From the NCBI GenBank assembly GCA_016792665.1, contig JAEUKJ010000156.1, positions 1-33,784 of the forward strand: a DNA stretch of 33,784 bases, read 5' to 3'. The notes below the pieces were generated by a model. That model did no database searches. It was not told where the DNA came from and saw nothing but the letters and a program-made list of their open reading frames with translations. Numbering within the stretch: position 1 is the first letter of the stretch; each line of letters starts with the position of its first letter. This DNA comes from Deltaproteobacteria bacterium (GTDB taxonomy: Bacteria; Myxococcota_A; UBA9042; PHBI01). Positions 6,252 through 33,329 of the stretch are shown in pieces. A program made the translations under genes and the position numbers.

Positions 6252-6941
6252 CACGCGAGTGCCGATCGCGACGGCGTTGGCGGCGTAGGCCTCGGCGCGC
6301 GGGATGGCGATCGTGCGCGCGGCGAGCCCGGGCAGCGTGAGGCCTTCGACGATGAGGACGGTCTCGGGGTCCAACGCCGAGGCGTGACACTTCAGATGGA
6401 GCACCTCGGGCGAGAGCGGCACCTCGACGACGCGGCCCCCTCGCGCGCGGACGAACGCGTCGAGGGCCGCGATGCCCTGGACGTTGGTGCGGTCGGAGCG
6501 CCCCACGTAGAAGGTCGCGCCGATGCGCAGGACGTCGCCCCCGTCGAGGGTCGCCAGCGGCGCCGATGTGGGCGACATGTGGACCAGCTCCAGGCCGAGC
6601 GCGCCGAGCGCATGCGCGACGGCGTCGACCTCGGCGCGACGTGACGGCGCACCGGGGAGCGTGATGAGGGCCGAGCCGTCGAAGACGACCGCGGTGTCTT
6701 CGACGAAGCAGGCGTCGGGCAGGTGCGGCTCGGGCGCGAGGGCGTGGACGGTGACCCCGGCATCGGCCAGCGCCGCGACATAGGCGGCGTGCTGCGCGAG
6801 GGTCAGCGCGAGGTCGATGGGCGGCACTCCGTCGACCTGCCCGAGCGCGCCGACGTAGGCCTCGGACGGGGGTCGCACGATGGCGAAGCGCGGCACGGCA
6901 GCGTCGGTCGGGGCGTGATTCGCAGCAGGAAGGGTGGGCAT
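6078..6941 (-). CDS. ddaH: Dimethylarginine dimethylaminohydrolase
   Basis: This 287-residue cytoplasmic enzyme of the amidinotransferase/arginine deiminase superfamily hydrolyses methylated arginines to citrulline and (di)methylamine. Family landmarks appear in order: PDACFVEDTAVV, LDGGDVLRIG, YVGRSDRTN, the catalytic-His block LHLKCHAS (His182) and the C-terminal nucleophile block GSLTCLSVLV (Cys267). The related arginine deiminases are about 400 residues long, which favours the shorter DDAH group. The ATG at 6941 has GAGG upstream at normal spacing. It begins 10 bases after the preceding gene ends, so it is probably the last gene of the tamA-tamB unit. Its last 174 bases overlap the tail of the convergent GGDEF-EAL gene. 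An arginine or agmatine deiminase-like specificity is a less likely alternative. Confidence 0.88.
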   Translation of the reverse strand: MPTLPAANHAPTDAAVPRFAIVRPPSEAYVGALGQVDGVPPIDLALTLAQHAAYVAALADAGVTVHALAPEPHLPDACFVEDTAVVFDGSALITLPGAPSRRAEVDAVAHALGALGLELVHMSPTSAPLATLDGGDVLRIGATFYVGRSDRTNVQGIAALDAFVRARGGRVVEVPLSPEVLHLKCHASALDPETVLIVEGLTLPGLAARTIAIPRAEAYAANAVAIGTRVLLSGGYPETLARVAAAGFEPVVLGMSELAKAAGSLTCLSVLVGSVGGPVPHDVLRIA

Positions 6942-6951
6942 GGTCGACGCC

Positions 6952-7512
6952 TCAAAAGAGGACGGAGAAGCCGAGCTCGGGATAGAAGCTGCCGCAGTCG
7001 ACCTCGCACGCGCTCACGATGTGCTCGTAGACGGCGCCGATGGCGATGAAGGTGATGCCGTCGCGGATGATGAGCCCCATGCGCGCGCCCAGGGTGTCCT
7101 GATCCTCGAAGCCGCCGGTGAAGAACCAGTGGCGATAGAAGACTCCGACGAAGGGATGGATCTCGGAGGACACCGGGAAGAGGACGCGGAAGGTCGGCCC
7201 GAGCTGGGCCGCGAAGGGGTCACGACCGAACTGCACCGCGCCGTCGACCCCGACCTCGACGTTGTCGGCGACGAAGTAGCCGTACTGGATCGCGATGGAC
7301 AGGTTCCAGCGATCGACCGTGGACCCGAAGAGCCCGCCGCCGAGGCCGATGCGCGAGCGCCCCTGCGCGTACGGGCTCTCCTCGGCGAGCTGGCCCTCGG
7401 GCAGGAACTCGGAGGCGCGCGCGCTGGGTGTGACGGCGACGAGGACCAGGGCGACGAGCGGGGCGAGCCACGCGCGCAGCGATCGGTGCAGGGTCTCTTG
7501 GAGGTGGAGCAT
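6952..7512 (-). CDS. Small secreted outer-membrane barrel-like protein, unknown function
   Basis: The product has 186 residues. An N-terminal signal peptide (hydrophobic LAPLVALVLVAV, then TPSARAS with a likely cut after ARA at about residue 33) sends it through Sec. The mature part alternates glycine- and aromatic-rich strands (SRIGLGGGLFGS, WNLSIAIQYGYFVADNVEVG, HPFVGVFYRHWFF) and ends in an aromatic C-terminus (FSVLF). This is the style of an 8-strand outer-membrane barrel whose terminal Phe is read by the assembly machinery. One Cys pair (ACEVDCG) may form a disulfide. It lies 25 bases after tamB and 10 bases before ddaH, so it is likely co-transcribed and could be a client of the upstream assembly factors. 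I do not recognise a named family. Confidence 0.75.
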   Translation of the reverse strand: MLHLQETLHRSLRAWLAPLVALVLVAVTPSARASEFLPEGQLAEESPYAQGRSRIGLGGGLFGSTVDRWNLSIAIQYGYFVADNVEVGVDGAVQFGRDPFAAQLGPTFRVLFPVSSEIHPFVGVFYRHWFFTGGFEDQDTLGARMGLIIRDGITFIAIGAVYEHIVSACEVDCGSFYPELGFSVLF

Positions 7513-7537
7513 CGAAGTTCTCTTCGGGTCGCGAGGC

Positions 7538-10500
7538 TCAGTTCTCGGAGGCCCAATCGAAGGTCAGCGCGAGGCCGGCCTTGAGGTCGAGGCCGAGGTG
7601 CGGGCCGAAGCCCAACATGCTTCGCGGTCCCTTGTGAAGGAGCCAGTCGTAGCCGAGCTCCATGCGGTTCTGGCCGATGGTAACCGGCTGCGCCTCGAGC
7701 CAGATGCGGCTGCCCGGGAGGAAGCGCTGCATGTCGAAGAACTGGATCTTGCCGTAGTCCTCGGGGCGCTCCATCGACTCGGACCAGCCGTTCGCGCGGT
7801 CCATGAAGATGAGGTTGCGGAGGTTGGTCTGGATGAAGGTCAAGACCAGGCCTTGATCGACGTTGCCGAAGCGGACCGTCTCCGACGCGGGCACGTCGGG
7901 CAGGCCCCAGATGCGCGCGCGGCCGGTGTTGAGGAAGGTCGCCATGTCGAGGAGGTAGGGGCCGGAGACGCCGCCGAAGACCGTCTTCAGGCCCGCTTGC
8001 GGCGTGAAGTTGACGGAGATGGTGGCCAGCGGATCGCGATGCCCGACCGCGATGTCGCGCAGCGCGAGGTCGGAGGGCAGGACCGCGAACTCGAGCGCGG
8101 CCTTGGCCGTCTCGAGCCCGCCGTCGGCGGTGATGGCACCCTTCTTCAGGCGGAACTCGCGACCCATCGCACCCAGCAGCCCCTCGAGGACATCGATGCG
8201 CCCGTGCAGGTTCACCTGCTTGCCGACAATGGCGACATCCATGTCGCCTTTCAGCTTGATGTCGATCGGGATGTTGCCGGCCGAGACGCGAATAGGCTCG
8301 GGGATGTGCAGGTGGACGTCGAAGCCCGTCACAGGCGCCGGCGGCAGCGTCAGATCGGGCGCGGGGGGCAGCGCGTGGTCGGTCGGCGGGAGCATCGGCG
8401 CCTTGCCCGGCGGCAGGACGCCCGAGGGTCGATCGCGGTCGACGTAGACGACGTCGTCATAGGCCGGGAACTGCGGGTAGTGGGCGCGGATGAAGCGCTC
8501 GGGCGAGTCGAGGTCCATCGACTTCACGGTGACGTCGACCTGCTTGATGGGGTCGCCGAGCTTGGTGACGGCGACGTCCAGATCGAGGTCGAGCTCGGCC
8601 TCGGGCGTGTCGAAGCCGAGGCCCAGGACGAGCCAGTCCTTCAGCATGACGCGCAGCGCGGCGTCGGTCGGCTTGAGGTCGGTCCAGGCGACCTTGCCGC
8701 TCACATCGACCGTGCGGTCCTTGCGCTGCGGGTCTTCCTCGCGGAGGTGGATGGCCTTCAGCTCGAGGCCGGTCGGCGTGCTCTGGAGGACGACCTTGCC
8801 GTCTCGCAGGTGGCGATCGGTGTCGGGGACGTTGATGTCGAGGTCGCGAATCACGAGGTCACCCGTGACCGCGCTGCCCGGCAGGAGCCCGGGCTTGGCG
8901 GGGTCGCGTGAGCTGACGACGCGACCGTCCATCTTCCAGTCGAGGGTGCCCTTGAGCTCGAGGGGGCGGCCCGCGGTGAGCAGGGCCGGCATCACCCGCA
9001 GGAGGTCGACGGCATCGGCGCGCATGGCGAGGTCGATCGGCAGCGGCGCCGGCGTGGCGTTCGGGTCCTTCGGCTTGGCCAGGTCTTGGCGGGCGACCCC
9101 ACCGCGGATCGTGATCTCACGCGCGGCTCCGAGCGCCAGCCCCCCCTCGGCGCGCTCGGCGGTGGCATCGACCTCGAAGGCGACGCGGCCCGGCGTGCCC
9201 GCCACCGTGTCGAAGCCATCCCAGGCGAAGGCGCCCTTGGCCGTCGGCGTGGCGATCGTGCCGCCCAGCACCAGCGCACCGCCGGTCTTGCCAGGCAGCT
9301 CGGGCAGCTTGGCGACGCTGGACAGCGCCGTGCGCAGCTCGGAGAGCGCGTGCTCGACGAGGCGGACCTCGCCGGAGAGAGGCGTCGCCATGAGGCGCGC
9401 GCGGTCCTTGGCGAGGCGCCGGAGCCCCTTGCCGGGCAGCGCCAGGCGCGCGTCGACGGCGAGCACGTCCAGGCCGGCGACGGCGACGTTCTGGGTGAGG
9501 CGGGTGTCGGCGTCGGTGATCGTTAGATGGCCATCGAACTTTGCCGGCGGAGCCGTGCCGACCACGAGGTCGTTGCCGGTGAGATCGATCTGGCCGCGCA
9601 CGTCGTCGCCCTGGCCGGCGAGGGCCAGGTCGAACCCGAGCTTGCCGGCGAGCGCCTTCGATGCGAGCCCGAGGCCGTTGATGGCGGCGAGATCGATGCC
9701 GTTCGGTACGCGCATGGCCAGGGTCCAGGGCTTCGCGAGCGGATTCGGGAGGAGCGGCGAGCGGTCGAACGAGGCGGTCGTCTCGTGCTCGAGGAAGGGG
9801 CGCGCAGCCGAGTCGAGCCACAGCGACAGGGTCGAGGCGAGCGCGGTCGACCTGCCGTCGGGACGAAGCGACCCCTGGACCGTCACCTTCTGACGGGCGG
9901 GTGCCTGCTCGTAGCCCTTTCGGCGCAGGAAGCCGCCGTCGAGGCTCAGGTTCCAGGCGCCGGTCGGGCGCGCGGTCGAGCCGTGGATGTCGAGGTCGAA
10001 GGCGACCTTGCCGTCGGGGTCGACGATGGGCGGAGCCGGGTTGGGCGAGAGGGCGAGGAGGCGCCCGAGCGTGGTCTCGGGCAGGTTTGCCTTGATCGAG
10101 ACGCGGCCACCGGGGGCGAGGCCGGCTTTGTCGCCGGGGTGGTCGGGCAGGTGGATCGGGGCCATGAGGTCGAAGGTCAAGAGCGGCTTCTTGGCGCCGC
10201 GATCGGTGAGGCCGAGACGCAGGTCGAGGTTCTTGTCGCGCAGGTTCATGTCGACCTTGGCGGTGAACGGGGCGCCCTGCTTCATGCGACCGCGCAGGGT
10301 CAGGAGGGTCTCGACGGTCGGGTTCTGGGGCGTGCCCTGGACGTGCAGGGTGCCACCGAGCTTGCCAGAGAGGCCACGCGTCGAGCGCTTGGCGAGGGCG
10401 GCGAGGCGACCGAGGTCCAGGTTGTCGACGTCGAGGACGAGGTTGATGACGTCGAGCTTGTTGGCGCCGGGGTTGGCTTCGTCCTTCGAGAGCTGGGCCT

Positions 10501-12904
10501 GGAGGCCGAGGCCCAGGGTGCCGCCGACGAGGTTGAGCGTCATCGAGGGCAGGTGGATCTGCTGCTGCCCGGAGGGCTTGCCGTCGGCGCCCAGCGGCTG
10601 GTCGATGCCGATCGTGACCGGGTCCTTCAGCGAGGTCTGGAAGGACCCGCGCTTGGCGTCGAGCTTCGAGACGGTCACGTCGACGTGGCGCTTCTCGAGG
10701 TCGAGGACGCTCTTGGTGTGGAGGTCGACGGCGAGGTCCTGGGCGGCATCGCGGACCTTCAGGTCGAAGTCCTGCACGAGGCCGTCGAGCAGCACGCTGA
10801 GGTCGACCGAGTCGATCTTCATGGTGCCGGTGTCGATCTGCCCGAGCTGGGCCCGGACGGTGCCCTTGGGCTGTGGATTCGGCCCCTCGGGGAGGGTCAG
10901 GTCGAGGTCGATGTCCATCTTGCCGACGTCGCGACCCGCGGCCTTGATGTCCTTGCCCTTGATGTGGCCGGTGAGCTTCGCGGTCTCGAGCGGGACCCGC
11001 GAGAGGTCGAGGCGTCCGTTGACGAGCAGGCTCGGCGCGGAGGCGGGGACGGGCTCGACCCCGGCGGGGGCCTCGGCCCCGGGGGCGGGAGGCGGCTTCA
11101 GGCGGCCGCTGACCCCGAGGTCGACGTCGATGTCGCCGGAGACCGGGGGCAGCGCGGCGAGCAGCACGCCGGCATCGCGCGCCTTCTGGATGGCGTCGCC
11201 GATGGCGGAGGTCATGCGCACGGTGGCGGCGAACTCGCGCGTGCCGCGGTCGAAGTTGCCATAGACGGTGGCGGTCTGACCGAAGGCCTCGAGGACCAGG
11301 CCGTCGAGGGTGACGAGGTTGCCCTCGGTCGAGGCGTCGATGGTCACGCTGTCGAGGGAGCGGCCCTTGACCGTAGTCTTGCCGACCTCGACGTGAAGCT
11401 TGGCCTTGTGCGCAGGCGGGAGGCCGACGAGGTCGAGGACCGCCTTGAAGCCCGTCTGGAGGTCGGGCCGGGTCGGGCTCGCGAGGAGCAGCGTCGTGTC
11501 GATCTTGTCGCCGGTGAGCTCGAGGTGGATGACCGGCTTCAGCAGGTCGCTCACGTCGGCCGTGCCGCTCAAGCCGAGGTTGCCACCCGCGGTCGCGACC
11601 TGGCCCGCGATGACCATGCGCTCGGCCGGGCCCTTCACGCTGGCGTCGAAGGCGACGTCGGAGGCGAGGACCTCTTTGCCGAGGAGGGTGTTGATGCCGG
11701 CCTTGTCGAGCTTGGCACCGACGAGCTCGAGGAGGTGCTCGCCCGGGCCGACCTTGATCTCGCCCGCGGGCGGGAGGTGCCCCTCGGCGTGCACCTTCGC
11801 GAGCGACAAGGGTCCGGCCGCGAGCCCGGCGAAGTCCATCGTCGCGAACTGGGTCTTCGGGTCGAGGTGGGCGACGAGCTTGCCGATGGCGACCGGGACC
11901 TGGGTCGCGCGGCCCTTGAGAGTGAGTGAGGCCTCGGTCGCGGCGGGCTCGAGCGCGACGTCGACGGTGCCGTTGTCGACCTTCGCCGTGAGCGTCGCCG
12001 AGAGCGGCAGCACGAGGTGAAGGGCCTCGCCGCGCGTGAGGTCGAGGGTGGCGCCGAGCTTGGTGAGGGCCACGTCGACCTTGCCTGCGGGCTGGTCCAT
12101 GGCGAGTCGGCCGGCGACCACCACGTCGGTGAGCGCCAGGACGCTGCCGTCGGGGCGCTCGATGCGGACCTTCACGTCGTGGACGTCGAGGGCCTGGACG
12201 ACGATCTGCTCGGGGAGCTTGGTCGGCTCCTTCTGCATGCGCCGGAGGTTGTTCGTGCCGTCGGGGAAGGCGACGAGGTCGAGGGCCAGGCCTTCGACGA
12301 GCAGCTTCTCGATGGTCAGCGGCTTCGAGAGGAGGCTGCCCCAGTCGAGGTCGACGAGCGCGTGTGACAGATGCAGGACGGTCTTGCCGCCCTTCTCTTT
12401 GATGTCGAGATCGAAGAGCTCGACGTCGCCGCCGAGCGCGTAGTCGATCCGGCCGAGGGTCACCTCGCCATCGTACTTCTTGGCGAGGGCACCCTCGACG
12501 ATGCCGCGTGCGACGCTCTTGCCGGGACCGGTGTGGAAGAAGCCGATCGCCAGGCCGACGAGCAGGAGCAAGATCCCGAAGGTCCAGAGGACGCCCTTCA
12601 GGATGCGGCGCGGCAAGGACTTCCTGGGCTTGGTCGGCTTGCCCTCGGGCGGGGGCGAGAGGTCGTCCAGGACGATCTCGGACTCCGACTTCTCGAGGTA
12701 GGGGGCGGTCTTCTTCCTCCGCTTGGTCACCGGTCCGATGACCGCGTTCGGCTCCGACGGCTCCGACACGCCGCTGTCGGCGCGACCGCCACCGAGGACG
12801 TCGTCACTCATCGCGGGGACGGTGGTGGTCTTCGCGTCCTGCGCGACCACGCTCATGCCCGGCTCGGTCGCCTTCTTGATGTTCTTCGGGTCTTCAGTGG
12901 CCAT
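7538..12904 (-). CDS. tamB: TamB-family translocation and assembly module protein
   Basis: This 1788-residue AsmA/TamB-type protein is anchored in the inner membrane and spans the periplasm as a long beta-taco. Family members work with TamA-type barrels in outer-membrane protein insertion and/or lipid transport. One transmembrane helix lies at about residues 108-127 (GVLWTFGILLLLVGLAIGFF). It is followed by well over a thousand residues of repeating beta strands (LDLDIHGS, VDLDWGSL), and a C-terminal DUF490-like domain in which GLKTVFGGVSGPYLLDMATF and a final strand (LALTFDWASEN) can be picked out. E. coli TamB has about 1260 residues, so this is a long version. It has an unusual ~105-residue hydrophilic, probably cytoplasmic, N-terminal extension rich in Lys, Asp and Ser. 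Its ATG shares one base with the tamA stop (TGATG), indicating coupled translation. Confidence 0.9.
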   Translation of the reverse strand: MATEDPKNIKKATEPGMSVVAQDAKTTTVPAMSDDVLGGGRADSGVSEPSEPNAVIGPVTKRRKKTAPYLEKSESEIVLDDLSPPPEGKPTKPRKSLPRRILKGVLWTFGILLLLVGLAIGFFHTGPGKSVARGIVEGALAKKYDGEVTLGRIDYALGGDVELFDLDIKEKGGKTVLHLSHALVDLDWGSLLSKPLTIEKLLVEGLALDLVAFPDGTNNLRRMQKEPTKLPEQIVVQALDVHDVKVRIERPDGSVLALTDVVVAGRLAMDQPAGKVDVALTKLGATLDLTRGEALHLVLPLSATLTAKVDNGTVDVALEPAATEASLTLKGRATQVPVAIGKLVAHLDPKTQFATMDFAGLAAGPLSLAKVHAEGHLPPAGEIKVGPGEHLLELVGAKLDKAGINTLLGKEVLASDVAFDASVKGPAERMVIAGQVATAGGNLGLSGTADVSDLLKPVIHLELTGDKIDTTLLLASPTRPDLQTGFKAVLDLVGLPPAHKAKLHVEVGKTTVKGRSLDSVTIDASTEGNLVTLDGLVLEAFGQTATVYGNFDRGTREFAATVRMTSAIGDAIQKARDAGVLLAALPPVSGDIDVDLGVSGRLKPPPAPGAEAPAGVEPVPASAPSLLVNGRLDLSRVPLETAKLTGHIKGKDIKAAGRDVGKMDIDLDLTLPEGPNPQPKGTVRAQLGQIDTGTMKIDSVDLSVLLDGLVQDFDLKVRDAAQDLAVDLHTKSVLDLEKRHVDVTVSKLDAKRGSFQTSLKDPVTIGIDQPLGADGKPSGQQQIHLPSMTLNLVGGTLGLGLQAQLSKDEANPGANKLDVINLVLDVDNLDLGRLAALAKRSTRGLSGKLGGTLHVQGTPQNPTVETLLTLRGRMKQGAPFTAKVDMNLRDKNLDLRLGLTDRGAKKPLLTFDLMAPIHLPDHPGDKAGLAPGGRVSIKANLPETTLGRLLALSPNPAPPIVDPDGKVAFDLDIHGSTARPTGAWNLSLDGGFLRRKGYEQAPARQKVTVQGSLRPDGRSTALASTLSLWLDSAARPFLEHETTASFDRSPLLPNPLAKPWTLAMRVPNGIDLAAINGLGLASKALAGKLGFDLALAGQGDDVRGQIDLTGNDLVVGTAPPAKFDGHLTITDADTRLTQNVAVAGLDVLAVDARLALPGKGLRRLAKDRARLMATPLSGEVRLVEHALSELRTALSSVAKLPELPGKTGGALVLGGTIATPTAKGAFAWDGFDTVAGTPGRVAFEVDATAERAEGGLALGAAREITIRGGVARQDLAKPKDPNATPAPLPIDLAMRADAVDLLRVMPALLTAGRPLELKGTLDWKMDGRVVSSRDPAKPGLLPGSAVTGDLVIRDLDINVPDTDRHLRDGKVVLQSTPTGLELKAIHLREEDPQRKDRTVDVSGKVAWTDLKPTDAALRVMLKDWLVLGLGFDTPEAELDLDLDVAVTKLGDPIKQVDVTVKSMDLDSPERFIRAHYPQFPAYDDVVYVDRDRPSGVLPPGKAPMLPPTDHALPPAPDLTLPPAPVTGFDVHLHIPEPIRVSAGNIPIDIKLKGDMDVAIVGKQVNLHGRIDVLEGLLGAMGREFRLKKGAITADGGLETAKAALEFAVLPSDLALRDIAVGHRDPLATISVNFTPQAGLKTVFGGVSGPYLLDMATFLNTGRARIWGLPDVPASETVRFGNVDQGLVLTFIQTNLRNLIFMDRANGWSESMERPEDYGKIQFFDMQRFLPGSRIWLEAQPVTIGQNRMELGYDWLLHKGPRSMLGFGPHLGLDLKAGLALTFDWASEN

Positions 12905-18110: not shown

Positions 18111-19028
18111 TCAGGCCGCGACCTTGCGGACGCGACGCAGCTCGAGCAGCTTCTTCGCGTATCGGTTCATCGCGTCGGCGAGCTGCTCGAAGCTGTCGAG
18201 CACGTAGAGGATCGGCTGGTAGTGATGGATCTCGAACGCCGTGTCGCACACGCGCTCGAGGTCGAAGGGGCGCCGGTCGACCTCGGGCGAGACCAGCGCA
18301 TGATGCCCCTCGCCCTCGCTCGAGATGAGGCCCGAGCCGTAGAGCTTCAAGCGCCCGTCCTCGTGGATGAGACCGAACTCGACCGTGAACCAGAACAAGC
18401 GCGCGAGCCGCTCCGTGTGGACCGGGTCGTCGGTCGTGAGCGCGGCCTGCCCATAGATCTGGAGGAACTCTGCGAAGCTCGGGTCCGTGTGCAGCGGCAC
18501 GTGCCCAAAGACGTCGTGGATGATGTCGGGCTCGGGCAGATAGTCCATCTGCGACTTCGGCCGCACCGTGATGGTCGTCGGGAACTGACGCTTCGCGAGG
18601 AACGCGAAGAAACACCGCGCAGGGATATAGCCCGGCACGGCATGCGACGACCAACCGGTCATCGGCGTGAGCAGTGCGTTGACCTCACCCAGACGCGGCA
18701 CCTCGTCCCGCGACAGCGCGATGGCTTCGGCCCCGCGCAGGAACACGCGCGACCCCGAGTGCTCGAGCTGCGCCATCCGCTTGTCGAAGATGGTCCGCCA
18801 CACCTCGTGATCTTCGGCGGTGTAGCGATCCCAGTGCTGAGCGATCTTCATCGCGTCGATGTCGAGCCGCTCCGCCGGGTACTCGGCCTGGGCGTTGGCG
18901 GCCTCCAGCGCGCGACGCGCCTCGTCCGACGCGATGACCGCCGACTGCAAGGCCCCCGTCCCGCTCATCTCGGTAGAGCCCATCGCGGGGTGAGTGTCGC
19001 GTCGGTGGGATCCAGACTTCGGGTTCAT
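18111..19028 (-). CDS. phhA: Phenylalanine 4-monooxygenase
   Basis: This 305-residue iron- and tetrahydropterin-dependent hydroxylase converts phenylalanine to tyrosine in the cytoplasm. The two-His-one-Glu iron site is visible: His171 and His176 in DIIHDVFGHVPL and Glu217 in TVEFGLIHEDG. The pterin and substrate regions (TGWSSHAVPGYIPARCFF, LYGSGLISSEGE) also match the aromatic amino acid hydroxylase family. The length suits bacterial enzymes, which lack the regulatory ACT domain; about 45 N-terminal residues are variable. I chose the ATG at 19028 because GGAGAGGTGG precedes it. An earlier in-frame start at 19097 would add 23 unlikely residues. No pterin recycling gene (phhB) is visible nearby. 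The tryptophan hydroxylase branch is possible but less common in bacteria. Confidence 0.95.
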   Translation of the reverse strand: MNPKSGSHRRDTHPAMGSTEMSGTGALQSAVIASDEARRALEAANAQAEYPAERLDIDAMKIAQHWDRYTAEDHEVWRTIFDKRMAQLEHSGSRVFLRGAEAIALSRDEVPRLGEVNALLTPMTGWSSHAVPGYIPARCFFAFLAKRQFPTTITVRPKSQMDYLPEPDIIHDVFGHVPLHTDPSFAEFLQIYGQAALTTDDPVHTERLARLFWFTVEFGLIHEDGRLKLYGSGLISSEGEGHHALVSPEVDRRPFDLERVCDTAFEIHHYQPILYVLDSFEQLADAMNRYAKKLLELRRVRKVAA

Positions 19029-19050
19029 GGCCACCTCTCCATGGGGAGAC

Positions 19051-19079
19051 GCCCTAGCAACAGCGCGGCCCAATGTCAC
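19051..19079 (-). promoter_or_regulatory. Possible promoter for phhA
   Basis: On the minus strand GTGACA (19079-19074) and TAGGGC (19056-19051) stand 17 bases apart, about 25 bases upstream of the phhA start. The -35 matches at 5 of 6 positions. The -10 is poor by the E. coli standard, so the call is tentative. Confidence 0.28.
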
Positions 19080-19160
19080 GCGCAAGCAGGCCGCCAAACG
19101 GTACGCGCCAAGCCGCGTCGAGTCACCCGCGCAAACCGCCGCGTCCGATGACGCGCCGCG

Positions 19161-25245: not shown

Positions 25246-26850
25246 TCAGCGCGTGAGCTCGGCCCAGCCCACGCGCAGCCCGAAGGCGAGCCCCTCGGTC
25301 GGCCATGCCGCACTCGGTCGCGTCGGCGCGGCGACCCACGCGAGGTCGACGCCGACCAGCAGCCCCGAGGGCCACACGCCCTGCCACGCGAGCGTCAGCG
25401 GCGCGCCACGGATCGCCGGCTCACGCGAGGCGATATGCAGCGGCTGCATGCGCAGGGCCCATGCGAATGCATGGGGTTCATGCTCTCGGGCGCGCAGCTC
25501 GAAGACGGTCGACAGGGTCCGGTTCGCGACGAGCGCGTCGCGGCGGTCCTCGATCCCGAAGGCCACCACGAAGGTCGTCTCGGCGTCGATCGCGACCGCG
25601 ACGCCGAGGTCGAAGCGACCGAGCCACGTCGGCCCCTGCCCGTCCACCCCGAGCGCGACCGAAGCCCCGACCGCGAGATGATTGCGTCGCGCCCAGCGCG
25701 CCCCGAGCTCGACGGCCGCATAGGGCGCGGCCGACGCTCGCGGCGAGCGCTCGGGATGGGTCAGCGTCCCGGGCAGGGATGCCCCGAGCAGCAGGCTCGC
25801 GCTGCGGAGGAGCGACGACTCGACCGGGGCGTCCAAGGCCTTGCTGGCCGGTGGCGGGTGCAGCGTGCGGGCCTTGGCCAGGGCCTCGATGAGCGGCGTC
25901 ACCGCGTCGAGCCAGGTGCGTGGGTCGCGCTCGGGATCGACGGCGATGCGCAAATCGAGCAACGCGTCCGCGGTCTCGCGGCAGATCATGTACGACCGAT
26001 AGCGCCCCAGTCGCCGCCCGAGCACGCCCTGCCAGCCCGCGAGTGCCGGAAGGGTGGCCGGGTCCAGGGCGTCTGCCCGCCAGGGGCCGGCGAGCAGGGC
26101 GCGAAAGAGGCGCGGGCAGTCGGCGATCGTCGCGCGCGGATGACGACGCACGCTGACCTGTACCTCGGGATAGGCCGGGACCTCGCGCACGAGCGCGTCG
26201 AAGTCCCGCTCGGGGCGACGCTCGGCGACGTGCCAGCGTGCGCGCTCGTCGGGGCGGGTCAGCTCGAGCCCGACCGCCGGGAGGGAGATGGACTCGGGCA
26301 GAGGATCGTACGGAGGCGGCGGGCGGCGCCCGGACGGCACGAGGCGCCGTGAGGTGAGCGCCTCGGCGAGCGCTTCGAGCAGGGGCCGATGGGGATCGAG
26401 GGCATCGCGATCGAGCCCCGACGACAGCGACGTCGCGTCGATGCGCACGAGCAGTCGCGACTCGGGCAGGAGCAGGCAAAAGCGGTCGCGGCTCCGGATC
26501 CAGGTCGCCCCACCGATGACGACATCGAAGGGCTCCGGCATCGGGCAGTCGCGCGCGGTCCTGGCGCCGACCTGGACCTCGTAGCGCGTGTCACCGACGG
26601 TCACGCGGTCCCAGGCCATGGCCTCGGACCAGCTCGAGTCGACTTCGATCGATGCCGCGCCGAGCGCTTCCGGCACGCGCACCCGCAGCCCCGCGACGGG
26701 CAGATCGATCCACCGGTCGCCTTCCGCGATCACCGCCGGGCCGGCACTCGGTTCGGCCCGAGCGCGCGTGCCGACAAGCGCCAGGGCCAAGACCTGGAGG
26801 ACGAGGACCGCGAGGAGGCAGGTGCACGTAACCCTCGCAACCGGGTGCAC
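25246..26850 (-). CDS. Secreted protein of unknown function
   Basis: The product has about 534 residues. The N-terminus is a clear signal peptide (CLLAVLVLQVLALALVGTRA, cut probably after ARA). The mature part has a beta-rich front (GDRWIDLPVAGLRVRVPEAL), a middle part with paired cysteines (DCPMPEP, RFCLLLPES, DCPRLFR, MICRETA), and a C-terminal ~170 residues of alternating strands (YAAVELGARWARRNHLAVGA, TFVVAFGIEDRRDAL, LLVGVDLAWVAA) that could be a small outer-membrane barrel. The start is uncertain: I take the GTG at 26850 because the signal peptide begins there and AGGA lies just upstream (spacing short). The frame remains open upstream to 27141, which would run into the divergent LysM gene. 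It is followed 121 bases later by the next minus-strand gene. Confidence 0.75.
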   Translation of the reverse strand: MHPVARVTCTCLLAVLVLQVLALALVGTRARAEPSAGPAVIAEGDRWIDLPVAGLRVRVPEALGAASIEVDSSWSEAMAWDRVTVGDTRYEVQVGARTARDCPMPEPFDVVIGGATWIRSRDRFCLLLPESRLLVRIDATSLSSGLDRDALDPHRPLLEALAEALTSRRLVPSGRRPPPPYDPLPESISLPAVGLELTRPDERARWHVAERRPERDFDALVREVPAYPEVQVSVRRHPRATIADCPRLFRALLAGPWRADALDPATLPALAGWQGVLGRRLGRYRSYMICRETADALLDLRIAVDPERDPRTWLDAVTPLIEALAKARTLHPPPASKALDAPVESSLLRSASLLLGASLPGTLTHPERSPRASAAPYAAVELGARWARRNHLAVGASVALGVDGQGPTWLGRFDLGVAVAIDAETTFVVAFGIEDRRDALVANRTLSTVFELRAREHEPHAFAWALRMQPLHIASREPAIRGAPLTLAWQGVWPSGLLVGVDLAWVAAPTRPSAAWPTEGLAFGLRVGWAELTR

Positions 26851-27001
26851 TTCCTCAAATCGCGCGACCGGCGTATCACCCTGCCGGCTCGCGGCTGACC
26901 TCCAGGGGTGGCAGCCGAGGAGCACCTCGCCACGCGTTCGCACCTTCGCGGCCGCCCATCGCGGTACCGCTCGCGCGCACGAAAACCAGGAGTCCAAGAC
27001 C

Positions 27002-27601
27002 ATGTCGCTCTTCGATATCGTAAATCCCGTCGAAAAGGCCAAGGCCGCGCTCGCGGAAGCGCAGAAGGCGAAGGCCGACGAGTTCGCGCGGCAGGCCAAG
27101 GAGGCCATGGACAAGGCCATGGCGGCCGCGAAGTCGTCCATTGATCAGAAGGCCGCCGAAGAGGCCGCCAAGAAGGCCGCGACGGTGGCCAGGTGGAAGC
27201 AGCAGGAGGAGACGCTCGAGGAGGCCCTGGAGCACGTCGGCATCTCGGGCGTGGACGTGCAGATCGACGAGGCCGGCTTCGCGCGCCTCGTGGGCACGGT
27301 GAACAGCGCCGCCGACCGCGACACCGCCGTCGCCATGGTCGAGCAGATCCAGGTCTCGGGCCTCGACGTGCAGCTCGAGGTCGTGCCGCCCCCCGAGGTC
27401 CAGTCGGAGGCGCCCGCCCTCGATCTCGAGCAGCCGACCAAGTACAAGGTCAAGGCCGGCGAGTCGTGGTGGGGCATCGCGCATCGGGTCTACGGCGACG
27501 GGCAGCTCTGGAGCTCGCTCAAGGCGTTCAACAAGAACCCGAAGATGATCCACCCGGGCACCGAGATCCTCCTGCCCCCGAAGAACAAGCTCTCGAAGTG
27601 A
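27002..27601 (+). CDS. BON-LysM protein similar to YgaU/Kbp
   Basis: The product has 199 residues and no signal peptide. Residues 8-75 form a long Ala/Lys/Glu helix (EKAKAALAEAQKAKADEFAR). A BON domain covers about 76-130 (VDVQIDEAGFARLVGTVNSA, then DTAVAMVEQI). A LysM domain at about 148-195 closes the protein (YKVKAGESWWGIAHRVYGDG, then NKNPKMIHPGTEILLPP). E. coli YgaU/Kbp (149 residues), a cytoplasmic potassium-binding protein, has the same BON-LysM order, so a related role is possible. The long N-terminal helix is extra. Other LysM proteins bind peptidoglycan, but the lack of a signal argues against that here. The ATG has AGGAG upstream. A strong hairpin follows seven bases after the stop. 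Confidence 0.88.
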   Translation: MSLFDIVNPVEKAKAALAEAQKAKADEFARQAKEAMDKAMAAAKSSIDQKAAEEAAKKAATVARWKQQEETLEEALEHVGISGVDVQIDEAGFARLVGTVNSAADRDTAVAMVEQIQVSGLDVQLEVVPPPEVQSEAPALDLEQPTKYKVKAGESWWGIAHRVYGDGQLWSSLKAFNKNPKMIHPGTEILLPPKNKLSK

Positions 27602-27719: not shown

Positions 27720-30700
27720 ATGCTCCGTCACAACTTCTTCGTATTCGCGACCCTCGTCGTCACGCTCTCGGCCTGCCCGGCCGACGACAAGCTCGCGGGC
27801 GACACGGTCGATCCGAACGACACCTCCGCCGAGGTTACCGACACCGCCGTGCCCGACTCGGTCGTCTTCGACACGGGCGGCGACTCGGTCGACACCGCGG
27901 CCCCGGACGCGAGCGACACCTCGGACGCCGCCGATGGCGAGGTCGTCACGAGCTGTCTCACGCCCGGCAGCTTCGGGTGCGCGTGCAGCGGCAACGACCA
28001 GTGTGTCGACGAGATGTGCATCGAAGGGGCCGACGGCGCCTTCTGCACCAAGGGGTGTATCACCGAGTGCCCGGCCGGCTTCGCGTGCTTGAACACGTCG
28101 CTTGGCGGCCCCGACCCGGTCTCGATCTGCGTGCCGCGGCATGCGCGCCTGTGCCGTCCGTGCATGGCGCAGAGCGACTGCCAGAGCCCGTTGGACCCGT
28201 CGCCCGCCGCCTGCATCGCGACCGGTGACGAGTCCGCCGGGAGCTACTGCGCGACCTCGTGCGCCCTCGACCCGTGCCCCGGCGGCTACGCCTGCGAGGA
28301 CGTCGCCATCGGCGACACCACGCAGAAGCTGTGCGTACCCGAGAGCGGCGAGTGCACCTGCCGTCCGAGCTGGGCCGGCCTCGGCTACACGACGGCGTGC
28401 TCCGAGGCGAATGAGACCGGTATGTGCCGCGGCTCGCGTACCTGCGGCGCGGCCGGCCTCACGGCGTGCTCGGCCCCGACGCCGAGCGAGGAGGTCTGTG
28501 ACAAGCTCGACAACGACTGCGACGGTGGCACCGACAATGTCGCCGAGGTCGCCTGCGATATCAGCAACGAATATGGCAAGTGCAGCGGGCGCTCGGGCTG
28601 CGACGAGAACGGGCAGCTCATCTGCGTTGGCAAGACACCGGCCCTCGAGCGCTGTAACGGCGAGGACGACGACTGCAACGGCTCGACCGATGAAGCCGAT
28701 GCGGGGTGGCCGGACTGCGCCCCGGCCGGGTGCCGCGCGACCGGCGACGTGTATATCGAGACGGGCTCGCCGAGCTGCGTGAGCGGTCACTGCGTCTACT
28801 CGGACCCGAAGCCCTGCGGGCTCTACACCTGCGCACTCGGCGGCGACTCCGGCAACACCTGCGCGAGCACGTGCACCGATGACACGACCTGCGCGGCGGC
28901 CGCGCACTGCGACGAGACGACCGGACTCTGCGTGCCGGATCTCGCCGACGGCGCGGCCTGCACCGACCAGAGCGACTGCGGCGGCGGGCACTGCCAGAAT
29001 GGCTATTGCTGCGCCACCGGCGACTGTTGCAAGCAGCCCGACGACTGCCCCGCGGCGTATCGGTCGGGGGCGGCGTGCGAGATGGCGAGCAACTGCCAGG
29101 GCACGCGCCGCGATGCGAAGTGCGTCCAGTCGATCTGCTCCATCAGCGAGCCGCTGGCCGACGACTCGGGCTGCTCGGCATCTGTGCTGGCGGTCGACTG
29201 CACGCCGTACCAGCCGCGCTACTGCACTGGCGCCCTCGACCAGGGCGCGCCGAGCTGCCCGAGCTCGTGCACCCGCGACTCGGATTGTGTCGAGGGCTTC
29301 CACTGCGATGGGACCTGTGTCGCGAATGTCGCCAATGGCGGCGCGTGCGACGAGGAGAGTGACTGCGCGAGCCTTCATTGCCAAAATGGCTTCTGCTGCG
29401 GCAGCGGCGACTGCTGCAGCGCACCGGTCGACTGCCCGGCGAGCTACCGCCGCGCGTCGGCGTGCTATGACGCGGCGGCCTGCCAGGGCGATCGCGTGGA
29501 CGCCCTGTGCGTCCAGAACCGCTGTGATTCAAATACGATTCAGGACGACGCCGGCTGCGACACCAACGTCGAGGCCAACGGCTGCGGGCCTTCGAAGTCG
29601 GTCTTCTGCAGCGGCGCCGGCGTGCAGAGCCCGCCCCAGTGTCAGTTCTTCTGCGCGCTGGACAGCGACTGCGACGCCGGCTTCCACTGCGACACGGTGT
29701 GCGTTCCGAATGTGCCAGATGGCAATTTCTGCGACGAGAACAGCGACTGCGTCTCGGCCCACTGCCAGGGCGGACTGTGCTGCCTGTCGGGGGATTGCTG
29801 CAATCTGGCGCGCGATTGCCCGGCGAGCTACACCGGCCCCGCGAACTGCGACTTCCCGACGAGCTGCCAGGGCACGCGCGACGCCGCGCAATGCAATAAC
29901 CACGTGTGTAAGACGGTGAGTGGCAGCGCCGACGACTCGGCCTGCACCAATGCCACCGTCGCCAACAACTGCGGGTCCTACCCGTCGGTGAGCTGCAACG
30001 GCCAGGCCGACCAACAGTCCCCGAGCTGTGCGACGCGCTGCGACTCGAACGGGCAGTGCGATGCCAACGCCTATTGTGACGCCAACGCGTGCAAGTCGAA
30101 GAAGGACGATGGCGTGCAGTGCACGGGCGATGCTCAGTGCACGAGCGGCCACTGCCAGAATGGGTTCTGCTGCGCGAGCGGCGATTGCTGCGCGCTGGCC
30201 GCCAACTGCAGTGCGGCGACCTACGGCACGACCAGCGTGTGCACGGACGCGGCGACCTGCCAGGGCGAGCGCAAAGACCCGGTCTGCCAGCAGTCGATGT
30301 GCAAGCTCGGGACGGCGGCGGTCGCCGACGACTCGGGGTGCGCGGGGCAGCTGAGTGACAGCTGCGGGTATTTCACGTCCGTCTTCTGCTCGGCCGCGGC
30401 GAACCAGAACAAGCCGCCGTGCGCGACGAGCTGCAGCGGAAACAGCGCCTGCGATGATGGGGCCTATTGCGACAACGGGACCTGCAAGCCCAATCAGGGC
30501 GTGGGGCAGCCGTGCACGACCAGCGCGCAGTGCGGCGGGCTCGCGTGCGTCGACAACGTGTGTTGCGCGTCGGCGTGCGGCGGGACCTGCAAGGCCTGCA
30601 ATGTGACGGGCAATCTCGGGAGCTGCCAGAACGTCCCCGACAATAGCGATCCCGACAACGAGTGCGGCGCGGTGAGCTGCACCGGGTACTACTGGGGCTT

Positions 30701-33329
30701 CGACGCCAAGACCTGCTATGCGCGGGCGAATGTCGCGGCAGCGGGCGCCTCCTGCAATGGTGCCGCGGCGTGCGATGGACCGGGCGACGTCTGCCCAGGC
30801 GCGGCCAAGGGCGCAGCGGGCCTCGTGTGCCACGACGTGTGTCAGGCGCCGACCGCCGGCAGCTGCCAGGGCACGACGCCCGGGAGCTGCACCAACATCA
30901 GCGGCGGCACGCAGACCTGCGGCGTCGGGCAGTGCGCGAGGACCGTCGACAAGTGCAGCAACGGCGCACCGCAGGCGTGCACGCCGGGCCAGCCCTCGGC
31001 CGAGGTGTGCGATGGGGTCGACAACGACTGCGACGGACTCACGGACGCGGCGGATCCGGACCTCGTGCTCGTCAACTGCGACAACCAGAAGGGCGTCTGT
31101 GCGGGCGCGAAGAAGCCGGCGAGCCTTTGCCAGGCGGGCACGTGGAAGGCCTGTACCGATGCGAATTATTCGGCCTATTCGGCGAATTATCAGGCCGGAC
31201 GCGAGACGAGCTGCGAGACGAGTGCGGTCGCGGGCGGGCTCGACAACGACTGCGACGGCTCGGTGGACGAGGACTTCTCGTACACGGGGCCCGACGGAAC
31301 CGCGGTGCAGGGGGCCGGCAAGGCCTGCGGCGTCGGGGTGTGCGCGGGCGGAACGACCATCTGCGGTGTCGGCAACACGCTGATCTGCACGGGCGATGTC
31401 CGCATCGCGACCGAGACCTGCGATGGGTCGGACAACGACTGCGATGGCAAGTCGGATTCGTTGGATCCGAGCCTGCAGTTGATCGCGTGCGACAACCAGA
31501 AGGGCGTGTGCTCGGGGTCGACCCGGCCCGCGAGTCTCTGTGCAGCGGGCACCGGGCAGAACTGCACGAGCGCGGTCTACACGGCGTTCTCGGCGAGCTA
31601 TCAGGCGAGTGAGACCTTGTGCGACGGCAAGGACAACGACTGCAGCGGCGCGGTCGACAATGGGCTCGTGGCCCCGAACAACTCGAACCAGAACGGGGCG
31701 TGCGCGGGGACCAAGAAGCTCTGCGCGGGCGCCACCGGTTGGGTCGACAACTATGGGAGTGTCGCGGGGTTCGGCTTGGCCGAGACGCCCAATGGCAATT
31801 TCGCCGACGAGAACTGCGACGGCATCGACGGCGATGTCAATCTCGGGTTGTTCGTCACGACGACGGGGTCCGCGACGAGCGCGTGCACCCAGGCCGAGCC
31901 GTGCACCATCGCGCGCGCGCTGGCGTTGGTGTCCGCGCAGAAGCCGCAGATCTACTTGCGGGCGGGGACTTACACGGGTCCCTTTGCGATTCCGCGGACG
32001 ATCGGGATTTATGGTGGGTACAACACCAACAACTGGTCGGTCCGCGCCTCGCGGACGACCGCAGGCTCGGTCGTCTATCTCGATGGTGGCAAGGTCGCGG
32101 CCGGTAGTCACACGGCGGTGATTACGGCGAGTGCGATCGGTTCTGCGGGAGATCCTGTCGTCATCGCCGACGTGAACCTGCGCGGTGCCAGCACCGCCGA
32201 TCGGCTGAACGGCTCGGGCACCTCGACCTACGGCGTCTTCTCGCGCAACTCCCATTTTCGCATGGAGCGCGTCGATGTGATTCCTGCGACGGCCGCGTCA
32301 GGTGGCGGTGGCAACTCCGGCGCGAGCGCGACCCAGAGTGCTGCGGTCGGCGGAGGCGGTGGAGAGACTGGCGAGCAGAGTGCGCAGGCCTGCGGGACGT
32401 ATCGCCCCCTTGGGGGCGCCGGTGTGTCGCAGGCCTGTCCGGACTCGACCTCCACGTCGAGCGGAGGGGGCGGCACCGGCGGCTCGAAAGACACGAGCTG
32501 CGGCTGGACGGGCATCTGCAGCAACTGCGACGCGACCAACGGTAATGCCGGCAATAACGCCAGCGTGACAAGTGGCGCGCTGGGTACAGGGGGTGGCGGC
32601 GGTGGGACCTGCACCGGCAGCCCTCCGGGAACCGGGAACTCCGGGCGGGTGGTTGACGGCAGTGCGGGCGCCGGCGCGAGCGGGACTTTCGGGTACCTCG
32701 ACGGGAGTGACTATTGGTTCGGCTTCGCTGGCGGTGGCGGTAGTCTTGGGTCCAACGGCGGTGGGGGTGGCGGCGGTGGTGGTGCCGGTGGCTGCGACGG
32801 GGGCAAGGATTCTCGCGGTGGCGGCGGCGGTGGCGGCGGCGCGGGCGGTTGCCGTGCGACCGGCTTCGGCACGGGAGGCTATAGCGGGGGTGGGTCCTTC
32901 GGCCTCTTCACCTACGGTGGCAGTTACGTGGTCGTGGGCCCAAGCACGCTCCTCCTCGGCAGCGGTGGTGTGGGTGGGACGGGCGGCGCGGGCGGGCTCG
33001 GACAACCGGGCGGAGCCGGTGGCGGCGGCGGTGCCGCGGCTGGAGGATCGGTCGCAGGTGGCGCAGGTGGTACCGGCGGTCGCGGCGGTCATGCTGGGGC
33101 AGGCGGCGGTGGCGCAGGCGGAGCGTCTTTCGCGGCGCTCATCGTAGGTGGCACCTGGTCGACCCAAGGGGTCATCACCTACAACCCGAACATCCCCGGC
33201 GGGGCCACGGGAGGCGCGGGCGGCACGACGGGCGTAAGCGGCGGGAGTGGAGTTGCCGGGCCCATCGGCAACGTGAGACAATGCACTATCACCAACGTCG
33301 GGGGCGTTCGGACCTTGAGCTGCCCGTAG
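27720..33329 (+). CDS. Giant modular Cys-rich lipoprotein with MopE-type motifs
   Basis: The product has 1869 residues. The lipobox LSAC (in MLRHNFFVFATLVVTLSACP) makes it a surface or periplasmic lipoprotein. A Thr/Asp/Val-rich linker follows. A Cys-rich front carries MopE-like Asp/Cys motifs (CDKLDNDCDG at ~28497, CNGEDDDCNG at ~28653). Four tandem Cys-rich units of about 130 residues span 28950-30512, each opening with a CQNGFCC-like motif followed by a GDCC motif. Five more MopE-like motifs lie between 31001 and 31830, with a duplicated ~65-residue block (CDNQKGVC). A short pectin-lyase-like beta-helix segment comes next (IYLRAGTYTGPFAIP, IGIYGGYNTNNW), then a glycine-rich region from ~32290. 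MopE-type motifs bind metal in related proteins; adhesion or metal capture at the surface is plausible. The start at 27720 is the first ATG giving the signal. Confidence 0.88.
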   Translation: MLRHNFFVFATLVVTLSACPADDKLAGDTVDPNDTSAEVTDTAVPDSVVFDTGGDSVDTAAPDASDTSDAADGEVVTSCLTPGSFGCACSGNDQCVDEMCIEGADGAFCTKGCITECPAGFACLNTSLGGPDPVSICVPRHARLCRPCMAQSDCQSPLDPSPAACIATGDESAGSYCATSCALDPCPGGYACEDVAIGDTTQKLCVPESGECTCRPSWAGLGYTTACSEANETGMCRGSRTCGAAGLTACSAPTPSEEVCDKLDNDCDGGTDNVAEVACDISNEYGKCSGRSGCDENGQLICVGKTPALERCNGEDDDCNGSTDEADAGWPDCAPAGCRATGDVYIETGSPSCVSGHCVYSDPKPCGLYTCALGGDSGNTCASTCTDDTTCAAAAHCDETTGLCVPDLADGAACTDQSDCGGGHCQNGYCCATGDCCKQPDDCPAAYRSGAACEMASNCQGTRRDAKCVQSICSISEPLADDSGCSASVLAVDCTPYQPRYCTGALDQGAPSCPSSCTRDSDCVEGFHCDGTCVANVANGGACDEESDCASLHCQNGFCCGSGDCCSAPVDCPASYRRASACYDAAACQGDRVDALCVQNRCDSNTIQDDAGCDTNVEANGCGPSKSVFCSGAGVQSPPQCQFFCALDSDCDAGFHCDTVCVPNVPDGNFCDENSDCVSAHCQGGLCCLSGDCCNLARDCPASYTGPANCDFPTSCQGTRDAAQCNNHVCKTVSGSADDSACTNATVANNCGSYPSVSCNGQADQQSPSCATRCDSNGQCDANAYCDANACKSKKDDGVQCTGDAQCTSGHCQNGFCCASGDCCALAANCSAATYGTTSVCTDAATCQGERKDPVCQQSMCKLGTAAVADDSGCAGQLSDSCGYFTSVFCSAAANQNKPPCATSCSGNSACDDGAYCDNGTCKPNQGVGQPCTTSAQCGGLACVDNVCCASACGGTCKACNVTGNLGSCQNVPDNSDPDNECGAVSCTGYYWGFDAKTCYARANVAAAGASCNGAAACDGPGDVCPGAAKGAAGLVCHDVCQAPTAGSCQGTTPGSCTNISGGTQTCGVGQCARTVDKCSNGAPQACTPGQPSAEVCDGVDNDCDGLTDAADPDLVLVNCDNQKGVCAGAKKPASLCQAGTWKACTDANYSAYSANYQAGRETSCETSAVAGGLDNDCDGSVDEDFSYTGPDGTAVQGAGKACGVGVCAGGTTICGVGNTLICTGDVRIATETCDGSDNDCDGKSDSLDPSLQLIACDNQKGVCSGSTRPASLCAAGTGQNCTSAVYTAFSASYQASETLCDGKDNDCSGAVDNGLVAPNNSNQNGACAGTKKLCAGATGWVDNYGSVAGFGLAETPNGNFADENCDGIDGDVNLGLFVTTTGSATSACTQAEPCTIARALALVSAQKPQIYLRAGTYTGPFAIPRTIGIYGGYNTNNWSVRASRTTAGSVVYLDGGKVAAGSHTAVITASAIGSAGDPVVIADVNLRGASTADRLNGSGTSTYGVFSRNSHFRMERVDVIPATAASGGGGNSGASATQSAAVGGGGGETGEQSAQACGTYRPLGGAGVSQACPDSTSTSSGGGGTGGSKDTSCGWTGICSNCDATNGNAGNNASVTSGALGTGGGGGGTCTGSPPGTGNSGRVVDGSAGAGASGTFGYLDGSDYWFGFAGGGGSLGSNGGGGGGGGGAGGCDGGKDSRGGGGGGGGAGGCRATGFGTGGYSGGGSFGLFTYGGSYVVVGPSTLLLGSGGVGGTGGAGGLGQPGGAGGGGGAAAGGSVAGGAGGTGGRGGHAGAGGGGAGGASFAALIVGGTWSTQGVITYNPNIPGGATGGAGGTTGVSGGSGVAGPIGNVRQCTITNVGGVRTLSCP
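28950..30512 (+). repeat. Four tandem ~390-base Cys-rich repeat units inside the giant lipoprotein
   Basis: The first conserved Cys codon of each unit is at 28959, 29346, 29730 and 30120, and the same position recurs at 30513, so units are 387, 384, 390 and 393 bases. Each unit has in order a C-x4-DC or C-x4-QC pair, an HCQNG-type motif (HCQGG in unit 3), CC then GDCC, a CQG motif, DDS/A-C, and a SPxC/APSC block with two later Cys pairs. The copies have diverged at the DNA level, so the duplication is old. Confidence 0.85.

Follow-up and report, generated by a model that had tools for sequence, protein, structure and literature searches.

A tandem array of 20-cysteine units in a predicted lipoprotein of a Deltaproteobacteria bacterium: an unnamed core between joints that resemble described cysteine-rich families

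The lipoprotein gene and its layout

The window considered here, by which we mean the whole stretch of DNA that was analysed, covers 33,784 nucleotides (positions 1-33,784) of contig JAEUKJ010000156.1 from a Deltaproteobacteria bacterium (assembly GCA_016792665.1), whose genome of 7.25 Mb is distributed over 789 contigs and is 85.6% complete. The last large gene of the window (27720..33329, + strand) encodes a protein of 1869 residues that contains 183 Cys. Its N-terminus (27720..27776, +) was read by eye as a signal peptide that ends at Cys19 of the motif LSAC (residues 16-19), which we take to be a lipobox under the usual consensus, and on these features the protein is predicted to be a bacterial lipoprotein. 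A linker without Cys (residues 36-78) leads into an N-terminal Cys-rich region (27954..28415, +; residues 79-232, 22 Cys), followed by two MopE-type metal-binding motifs, DNDCDGGTD and DDCNGSTD (28509..28691, +), the array of repeated units that is the subject of this work, a further Cys-rich region, four more MopE-type motifs (31020..31658, +), and a Gly-rich C-terminal region of 344 residues, 39% of them Gly (32295..33326, +).

Pfam recognizes the MopE motif (PF11617) in six stretches of the whole protein (58.4 bits, above the cut-off of 27) and in two stretches of its N-terminal 410 residues (30.0 bits), all six lying outside the repeated units. At E<=1, Pfam names nothing else in the 1869 residues and has no match in the Gly-rich C-terminus, and NCBIfam finds nothing above chance, its weak matches to MetX and LuxS being attributed to chance. 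Elsewhere in the window, the frame at 26588-27598, upstream of the lipoprotein gene, matches LysM (22.1 bits, cut-off 20.9) and, under threshold, BON (22.3 against 27 bits), and the minus strand at 18114-19097 encodes an aromatic amino acid hydroxylase of the biopterin-dependent type (PF00351, 183.6 bits).

A four-unit array

Residues 411-928, with 80 Cys, form four tandem units, all on the + strand and each carrying 20 Cys: unit 1 (28950..29336; residues 411-539, 129 aa), unit 2 (29337..29720; residues 540-667, 128 aa), unit 3 (29721..30110; residues 668-797, 130 aa) and unit 4 (30111..30503; residues 798-928, 131 aa). An earlier, sequence-only reading had placed four tandem Cys-rich units of nearly constant length (128-131 residues) at 28950-30512; the four full units and their lengths stand, but the array ends at 30503 and is flanked by two half-units. 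MAFFT alignment with the units identifies the stretch before unit 1 (28857..28949, +; about residues 380-410) as the C-terminal micro-module of a unit, and that after unit 4 (about residues 929-949) as the N-terminal part of one. The array thus consists of one half, four full and one half unit, and the presence of half-units at both flanks makes the register in which the units are cut arbitrary.

The repeat itself is real: unit-versus-unit alignments score 281-376, with a top score of 99 among shuffled sequences (six pairs, 200 shuffles each). Pairwise identity among the four units amounts to 38-52% at the protein level and to 51-61% in codon-aligned DNA, in agreement with the earlier view that the unit DNA has diverged. 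Recent amplification of the array is ruled out by this level of protein identity, and by the tree, in which the closest neighbours of every unit belong to other proteins. The motif pattern that had been described as recurring throughout does so in part: GDCC and CQG are present in all four units, but HCQNG and DDSxC occur in three each, unit 3 having HCQGG and unit 2 DDAGC, as read from the sequence.

The cysteine frame

That the unit is an old, selected module, as had been proposed, is borne out by the retention of its Cys. All 20 are kept in every one of 24 units picked by hand from full-length units above 90 bits, and in 131 of the 141 units of a wider alignment that joins the window's four to 137 of 145 units from relatives; the eight units omitted by hand (L078, L085, L088, L089, two of L092, L094, L096) are mostly long and divergent, so that conservation in this alignment is flattered. 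Among the 141 units, 12 Cys positions are invariant, seven are each absent in a single unit and C122 is absent in six, several of these absences being trimmed ends. Exactly 20 Cys are found in 119 units, 22 in 13 and 19 in six, again with a contribution from trimming. Twenty is an even number, as full pairing of the Cys would require.

Losses of Cys were also counted over the complete set of stretches that score more than 15 bits (217 distinct ones), with no exclusion by hand. C4 and C15 are lost jointly in four of four stretches, which come from related proteins and probably represent one event, and C91 and C106 are lost jointly in two; losses without a partner affect C43 in four stretches and C112 in three of four. 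Co-loss thus gives a weak hint of a C4-C15 disulfide, and none of any other pair.

A core without a named domain, and joints that resemble named families

The two ends of a unit are alike by hhalign (probability 75.6), and the central part resembles neither of them (0.9 and 8.1). Joined across a unit boundary, the ends make up a double Cys micro-module, and the unit therefore divides into a core of approximately 72 residues and the joints between successive units. The unit-pair alignment comprised 90 pairs minus one (L092); the joint and core sets held 30 of 92 joints and 32 of 141 cores.

When these 30 joints were each scanned alone against Pfam at E<=10, 22 matched DUF7107, 15 EB and 10 Dickkopf_N, with best E-values of 4.1e-6, 2.7e-4 and 2.2e-6, respectively. 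Cys spacing alone was ruled out as the source of these matches by a control in which the Cys of the same 30 joints were held fixed and all other residues shuffled: DUF7107 was then matched twice and EB and Dickkopf_N not at all, the best E-value being 0.33. One such shuffle matched Dumpy_DPY, at E 0.046. In the window, the joint between units 1 and 2 (29253..29435, +) matches EB at 8.8 bits (cut-off 24.3), that between units 2 and 3 (29637..29819, +) DUF7107 at 15.5 bits (cut-off 24.6), and that between units 3 and 4 (30024..30209, +) both DUF7107 (18.4 bits) and Dickkopf_N (16.7 bits, cut-off 25), while the joint of unit 4 with the post-array region, which includes the half-unit at residues 929-949 (30417..30617, +), reaches 20.2 bits with DUF7107. 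None of the window's five joints passes any of the three cut-offs, and one has no match. Dickkopf_N (PF04706) peaks in the window at the 16.7 bits given above and is missing from the whole window protein at E<=1, DUF7107 (PF23416) attains at best 20.2 bits in the window and 23.8 in a paralogue from the same genome, and EB (PF01683) reaches 14.8 bits at best over the five window and five paralogue joints. The paralogue's joint after its unit 4 does exceed a cut-off, with 31.4 bits for Dickkopf_N (29.1 in the genome search), and two relatives, of three and four units, stay under that threshold at 20.6 and 19.4 bits. The match is confined to the joint, which rules out that the whole unit is a single Dickkopf_N domain.

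The core presents a different picture. That of unit 2 (29430..29645, +; 72 residues, 9 Cys) is an example for which Pfam and PDB searches gave no name. Over the 32 cores scanned, Pfam returned three scattered matches, each to a single member (best E 0.04); DUF7107 is matched by one of the 32, at E 2; a core profile found no chain among PDB sequences, and in its own genome the core occurs only in the eight known places. No entry of Pfam, NCBIfam or the PDB covers the whole unit, whose profile had one match among PDB sequences, at E 1.7. Matches of the joint profile to PDB sequences (NAB2 zinc fingers at E 0.024, DKK1 at E 5.8-9.4) were taken as chance or Cys bias. A literature search produced no title on a 20-Cys module, and DUF7107 likewise appeared in none of the papers searched. 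The earlier statement that the unit matches no named domain consequently holds for the core of about 72 residues but not for the joints, and the unit appears, from sequence comparison, to be built of such a core and of double micro-module joints like those of EB, Dickkopf_N and DUF7107.

Predicted structure

Structure prediction of one unit, which the sequence-only reading had suggested as a check, gave a confident model: AF2 modelled unit 2 alone with a mean pLDDT of 97.5 and a pTM of 0.80, and units 1-2 together with 97.7 and 0.77. The model contains strands at residues 39-45, 50-59 and 62-69, plus further short ones, and any helix is shorter than four residues; the core, with its nine Cys, includes a three-stranded stretch. 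For the pair, a pTM well under the pLDDT makes the angle between units uncertain, and a flexible string of units is possible.

Foldseek searches gave best E-values of 2.0 and 2.9 against the PDB, with no stalk-like structure, and 2.6 against BFVD; the absence of a structural match in these two collections does not prove a new fold. VIA-align gave two weak matches: 3fju_B, a carboxypeptidase inhibitor of Ascaris (Z 3.7, rmsd 3.5, 51 aligned residues), and, over the unit joint, the spider peptide 5fzv, a knottin (Z 2.3, rmsd 1.1, 31 aligned). These two, together with a Pfam match to CarbpepA_inh in one of 24 units (E 0.0042), would fit a knottin-type protease inhibitor or toxin-like array, a possibility that we regard as very improbable, given that Z values of 2.3-3.7 are common by chance and that the single-unit model has no VIA-align match at Z>=2. 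The position of 5fzv over the joint would also fit the micro-module reading of the joints, at a level far below what could be trusted.

Relatives and copy number

The genome carries a paralogue on another contig (C91), whose four units are 53% identical to the window's over the array. Its frame (L032, G000:C91:1-12500) runs for 3378 residues and is open at the end of the contig; reading by eye shows many motifs of the MopE type, and its Gly-rich C-terminus is similar to that of the window protein. A third place, on contig C221, matches only at E 2.3e-4. Among 36 genomes searched for relatives, 18, including the source genome, match at E<=0.001; a same-family genome (G001) and two of the same order (G003 and G004) have no match at that threshold, another of the nearest genomes (G002) has only a weak one (3.4e-6), and none of the ten f7-group genomes matches. 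A search of genomes with a profile of the units, likewise proposed at the outset, did uncover a family: in a sample of the phylum, a profile of 141 units matches 42 of 377 genomes at E<=1e-5, and 31 of the 235 better ones, with 11 candidates scored per genome, so that the numbers of matches within a genome are minima. The distribution within this sample is patchy.

A scan for the pattern HCQNG[FY]CC, with one genome for each of 84,980 species, identified 54 loci that encode relatives; the pattern allows no deviation from the motif, so that divergent members escape it, and the profile search was that of the phylum sample. Titles of these loci name Deltaproteobacteria, Proteobacteria, Myxococcota, Myxococcales, Polyangia, Sandaracinaceae, Nannocystaceae, Kofleriaceae, Polyangiaceae, Anaeromyxobacter, unresolved bacteria and one Oligoflexales (L082), a label that may be loose, since the L082 frame has the same length (2921 residues) as the match in a genome of the window's class (G017). 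Viral contigs gave 27 pattern matches and no relatives, and nothing among plasmid and phage records matched at E<=0.001.

The number of units per protein ranges from 1 to 12, three being commonest. Of 39 closed frames, 21 hold exactly three full units and the others 0, 1, 2, 4, 5, 8 or 12, where 'full' is set by a profile threshold and 0 denotes divergent or partial units; the 21 include L048, a piece that an in-frame stop cuts short, and L080, which contains masked bases. Units mostly recur every 127-138 residues from start to start, and every 165-171 in a group of proteins of approximately 3000 residues. A lipobox was detected by our own pattern in 22 of the 39 closed frames and by eye in 11 of 16 pattern misses that were read, the others being a non-lipoprotein signal (L084) and four ambiguous cases. 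At L034/L048 (G012:C15), one in-frame stop, which lies between the L048 frames 6893-11383 and 11387-12823 and may be an error, a pseudogene or read-through, splits an array into eight and three full units. Near 4161-6155 of G018:C177, units of the family lie in a frame that stays open for 9562 residues, which predicts a very large protein.

Beside relatives in the group of approximately 3000 residues, Pfam confirmed an ABC transporter in L086 and a glycosyltransferase in L082. The former, at L086:3-2517, lies directly upstream of a relative with LTD and P-domains, and the latter was seen 3' of the relatives in L078, L079, L082 and L091, with Pfam applied to L082 only. The other neighbourhood clusters obtained by blastp were for the most part artefacts of GC-rich DNA, with frames that were antisense or out of phase.

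Unit order

A tree was built from 84 units of the window and 20 selected loci. It points to an order within the arrays, although its bootstrap is unsettled and support is low at many inner forks (of 81 inner branches, 31 are starred and 18 drawn open). Fourteen of the 15 rows of one clade (support 97/83) are last units, from the window (unit 4), the paralogue and 12 other loci; last units account for 22 of the 84 rows and eight lie outside this clade, a few 'last' labels being doubtful because a contig end or a stop truncates the array (L046, L049, L048). The label changes nine times on the tree, against 16-22 times in 300 within-array shuffles. Since most last units cluster across lineages, the order of the units is old. 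Unit 3 of the window groups with units 3, 6 and 9 of the 12-unit array of L052 (support 99/83), in which classes recur as units 1, 4 and 10, units 2, 5 and 8, units 3, 6 and 9, and units 7 and 12, while unit 11 has no class, a pattern suggestive of partial duplication of three-unit blocks.

This positional identity evokes the possibility that the array is a ligand-binding receptor, with positions A-B-C-D each recognizing something different, such as a metal complex, vitamin or glycan to be passed on to the cell. The MopE-type motifs that surround the array would suit such a role, as would a frame of the ABC_tran cluster located upstream on the same strand in members of the group of about 3000 residues (L069, L078, L079, L082, L086, L088, L089 and L092); Peripla_BP_2, FecCD and ABC_tran were identified by Pfam in L086 only, the other loci being joined to it by blastp clustering. 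That neighbourhood, however, belongs to the architecture with LTD and P-domains rather than to that of the window protein, its synteny may be plain ancestry among related members, and the same blastp cluster also takes in frames of L052 and L070 and is thus non-specific. In addition, the best-conserved positions of the unit, which are the Cys together with a small number of Gly, Asp and Gln residues, are those that a scaffold would have, and we consider a receptor unlikely. Hardly less doubtful is a bolder proposal, in which the core would be a new disulfide-rich fold and the array an ordered series of A-B-C modules with a capping D, conserved across Myxococcota families, partly expanded in triplets (L052), and acting as a multivalent surface receptor.

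A putative spacer

We hold it somewhat probable that the array serves as a disulfide-locked, rigid spacer in a lipid-anchored envelope protein. The 1869-residue protein would be exported and lipidated at Cys19, and the Cys of its units would be oxidised outside the cytoplasm; the genome has two VKOR and nine DsbA-like matches above cut-off. If the Cys of the units are paired and the array is stiff and rod-like, this would keep the MopE-type motifs and the Gly-rich C-terminus, presumably the displayed parts, away from the membrane, possibly at the cell surface. Duplication of units would change the length of the array, and the last unit would retain its own identity, perhaps as a cap that contacts the region after it.

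Several observations speak against a plain spacer. Lipoproteins may face the periplasm instead of the surface, and position-specific units could mean ligand binding. The pTM of the unit pair is compatible with a flexible string, and Foldseek found no stalk-like structure. The losses of C43 and C112 without a partner, the existence of units with 22 or 19 Cys, the longer units of the group of approximately 3000 residues, and the patchy spread of the family also sit uneasily with the spacer reading.

Comparison with known systems

To our knowledge, few of the very large, Cys-rich surface proteins of Myxococcota have an assigned role. In animals, modular stalks made of EGF, LDL-receptor A or thrombospondin repeats string disulfide-bonded modules in tandem, to act as spacers or to bind. 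The principle is alike, without kinship to the present units: Ldl_recept_a matched one of 30 joints at E 3, which is chance.

The nearest described parallel is the stalk of the Myxococcus protein TraA, by analogy and not by kinship. According to PMC3325183, the Cys-rich tandem repeats of this cell-surface protein are proposed to form a rigid stalk, each repeat having three invariant and two marginally conserved Cys, as compared to 20 in a window unit, and TraA bears a MYXO-CTERM tag where the window protein has a lipobox. Recognition of another cell or of a partner copy through the unit surface, as in TraA, could also be envisaged for the window protein: large Cys-rich predicted lipoproteins occur in Myxococcota-type genomes, and a Cys-rich repeat protein with a role in recognition is described there (PMC3325183, PMC3820747). 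However, Pfam and NCBIfam searches at E<=1 detected neither a PA14 domain nor a MYXO-CTERM tag in the window protein, and such an adhesive role seems improbable. For TIGR04201, the model of the TraA-type Cys-rich repeat, NCBIfam gave no match to the protein (E<=1) or to 24 units (E<=10), in a release that may lack this entry.

The family also meets described domains at two points. MopE motifs (PF11617) occur in the window protein, outside the four units, and in larger number, by eye, in its paralogue; and Dickkopf_N, DUF7107 and EB resemble the joints of the window family, with the difference that the core of about 72 residues lies outside these families. 'Dickkopf_N' calls in such proteins can accordingly be joints of a larger repeat, as the present comparison suggests. 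What appears to be new is the unnamed module of about 130 residues and 20 Cys, whose joints are of kinds that already have names: uncovered by the Pfam and NCBIfam releases scanned, it now has an alignment, a model of high confidence and an initial estimate of its phylogenetic range, and offers a defined, expressible and testable building block for one class of large Cys-rich surface proteins of Myxococcota.
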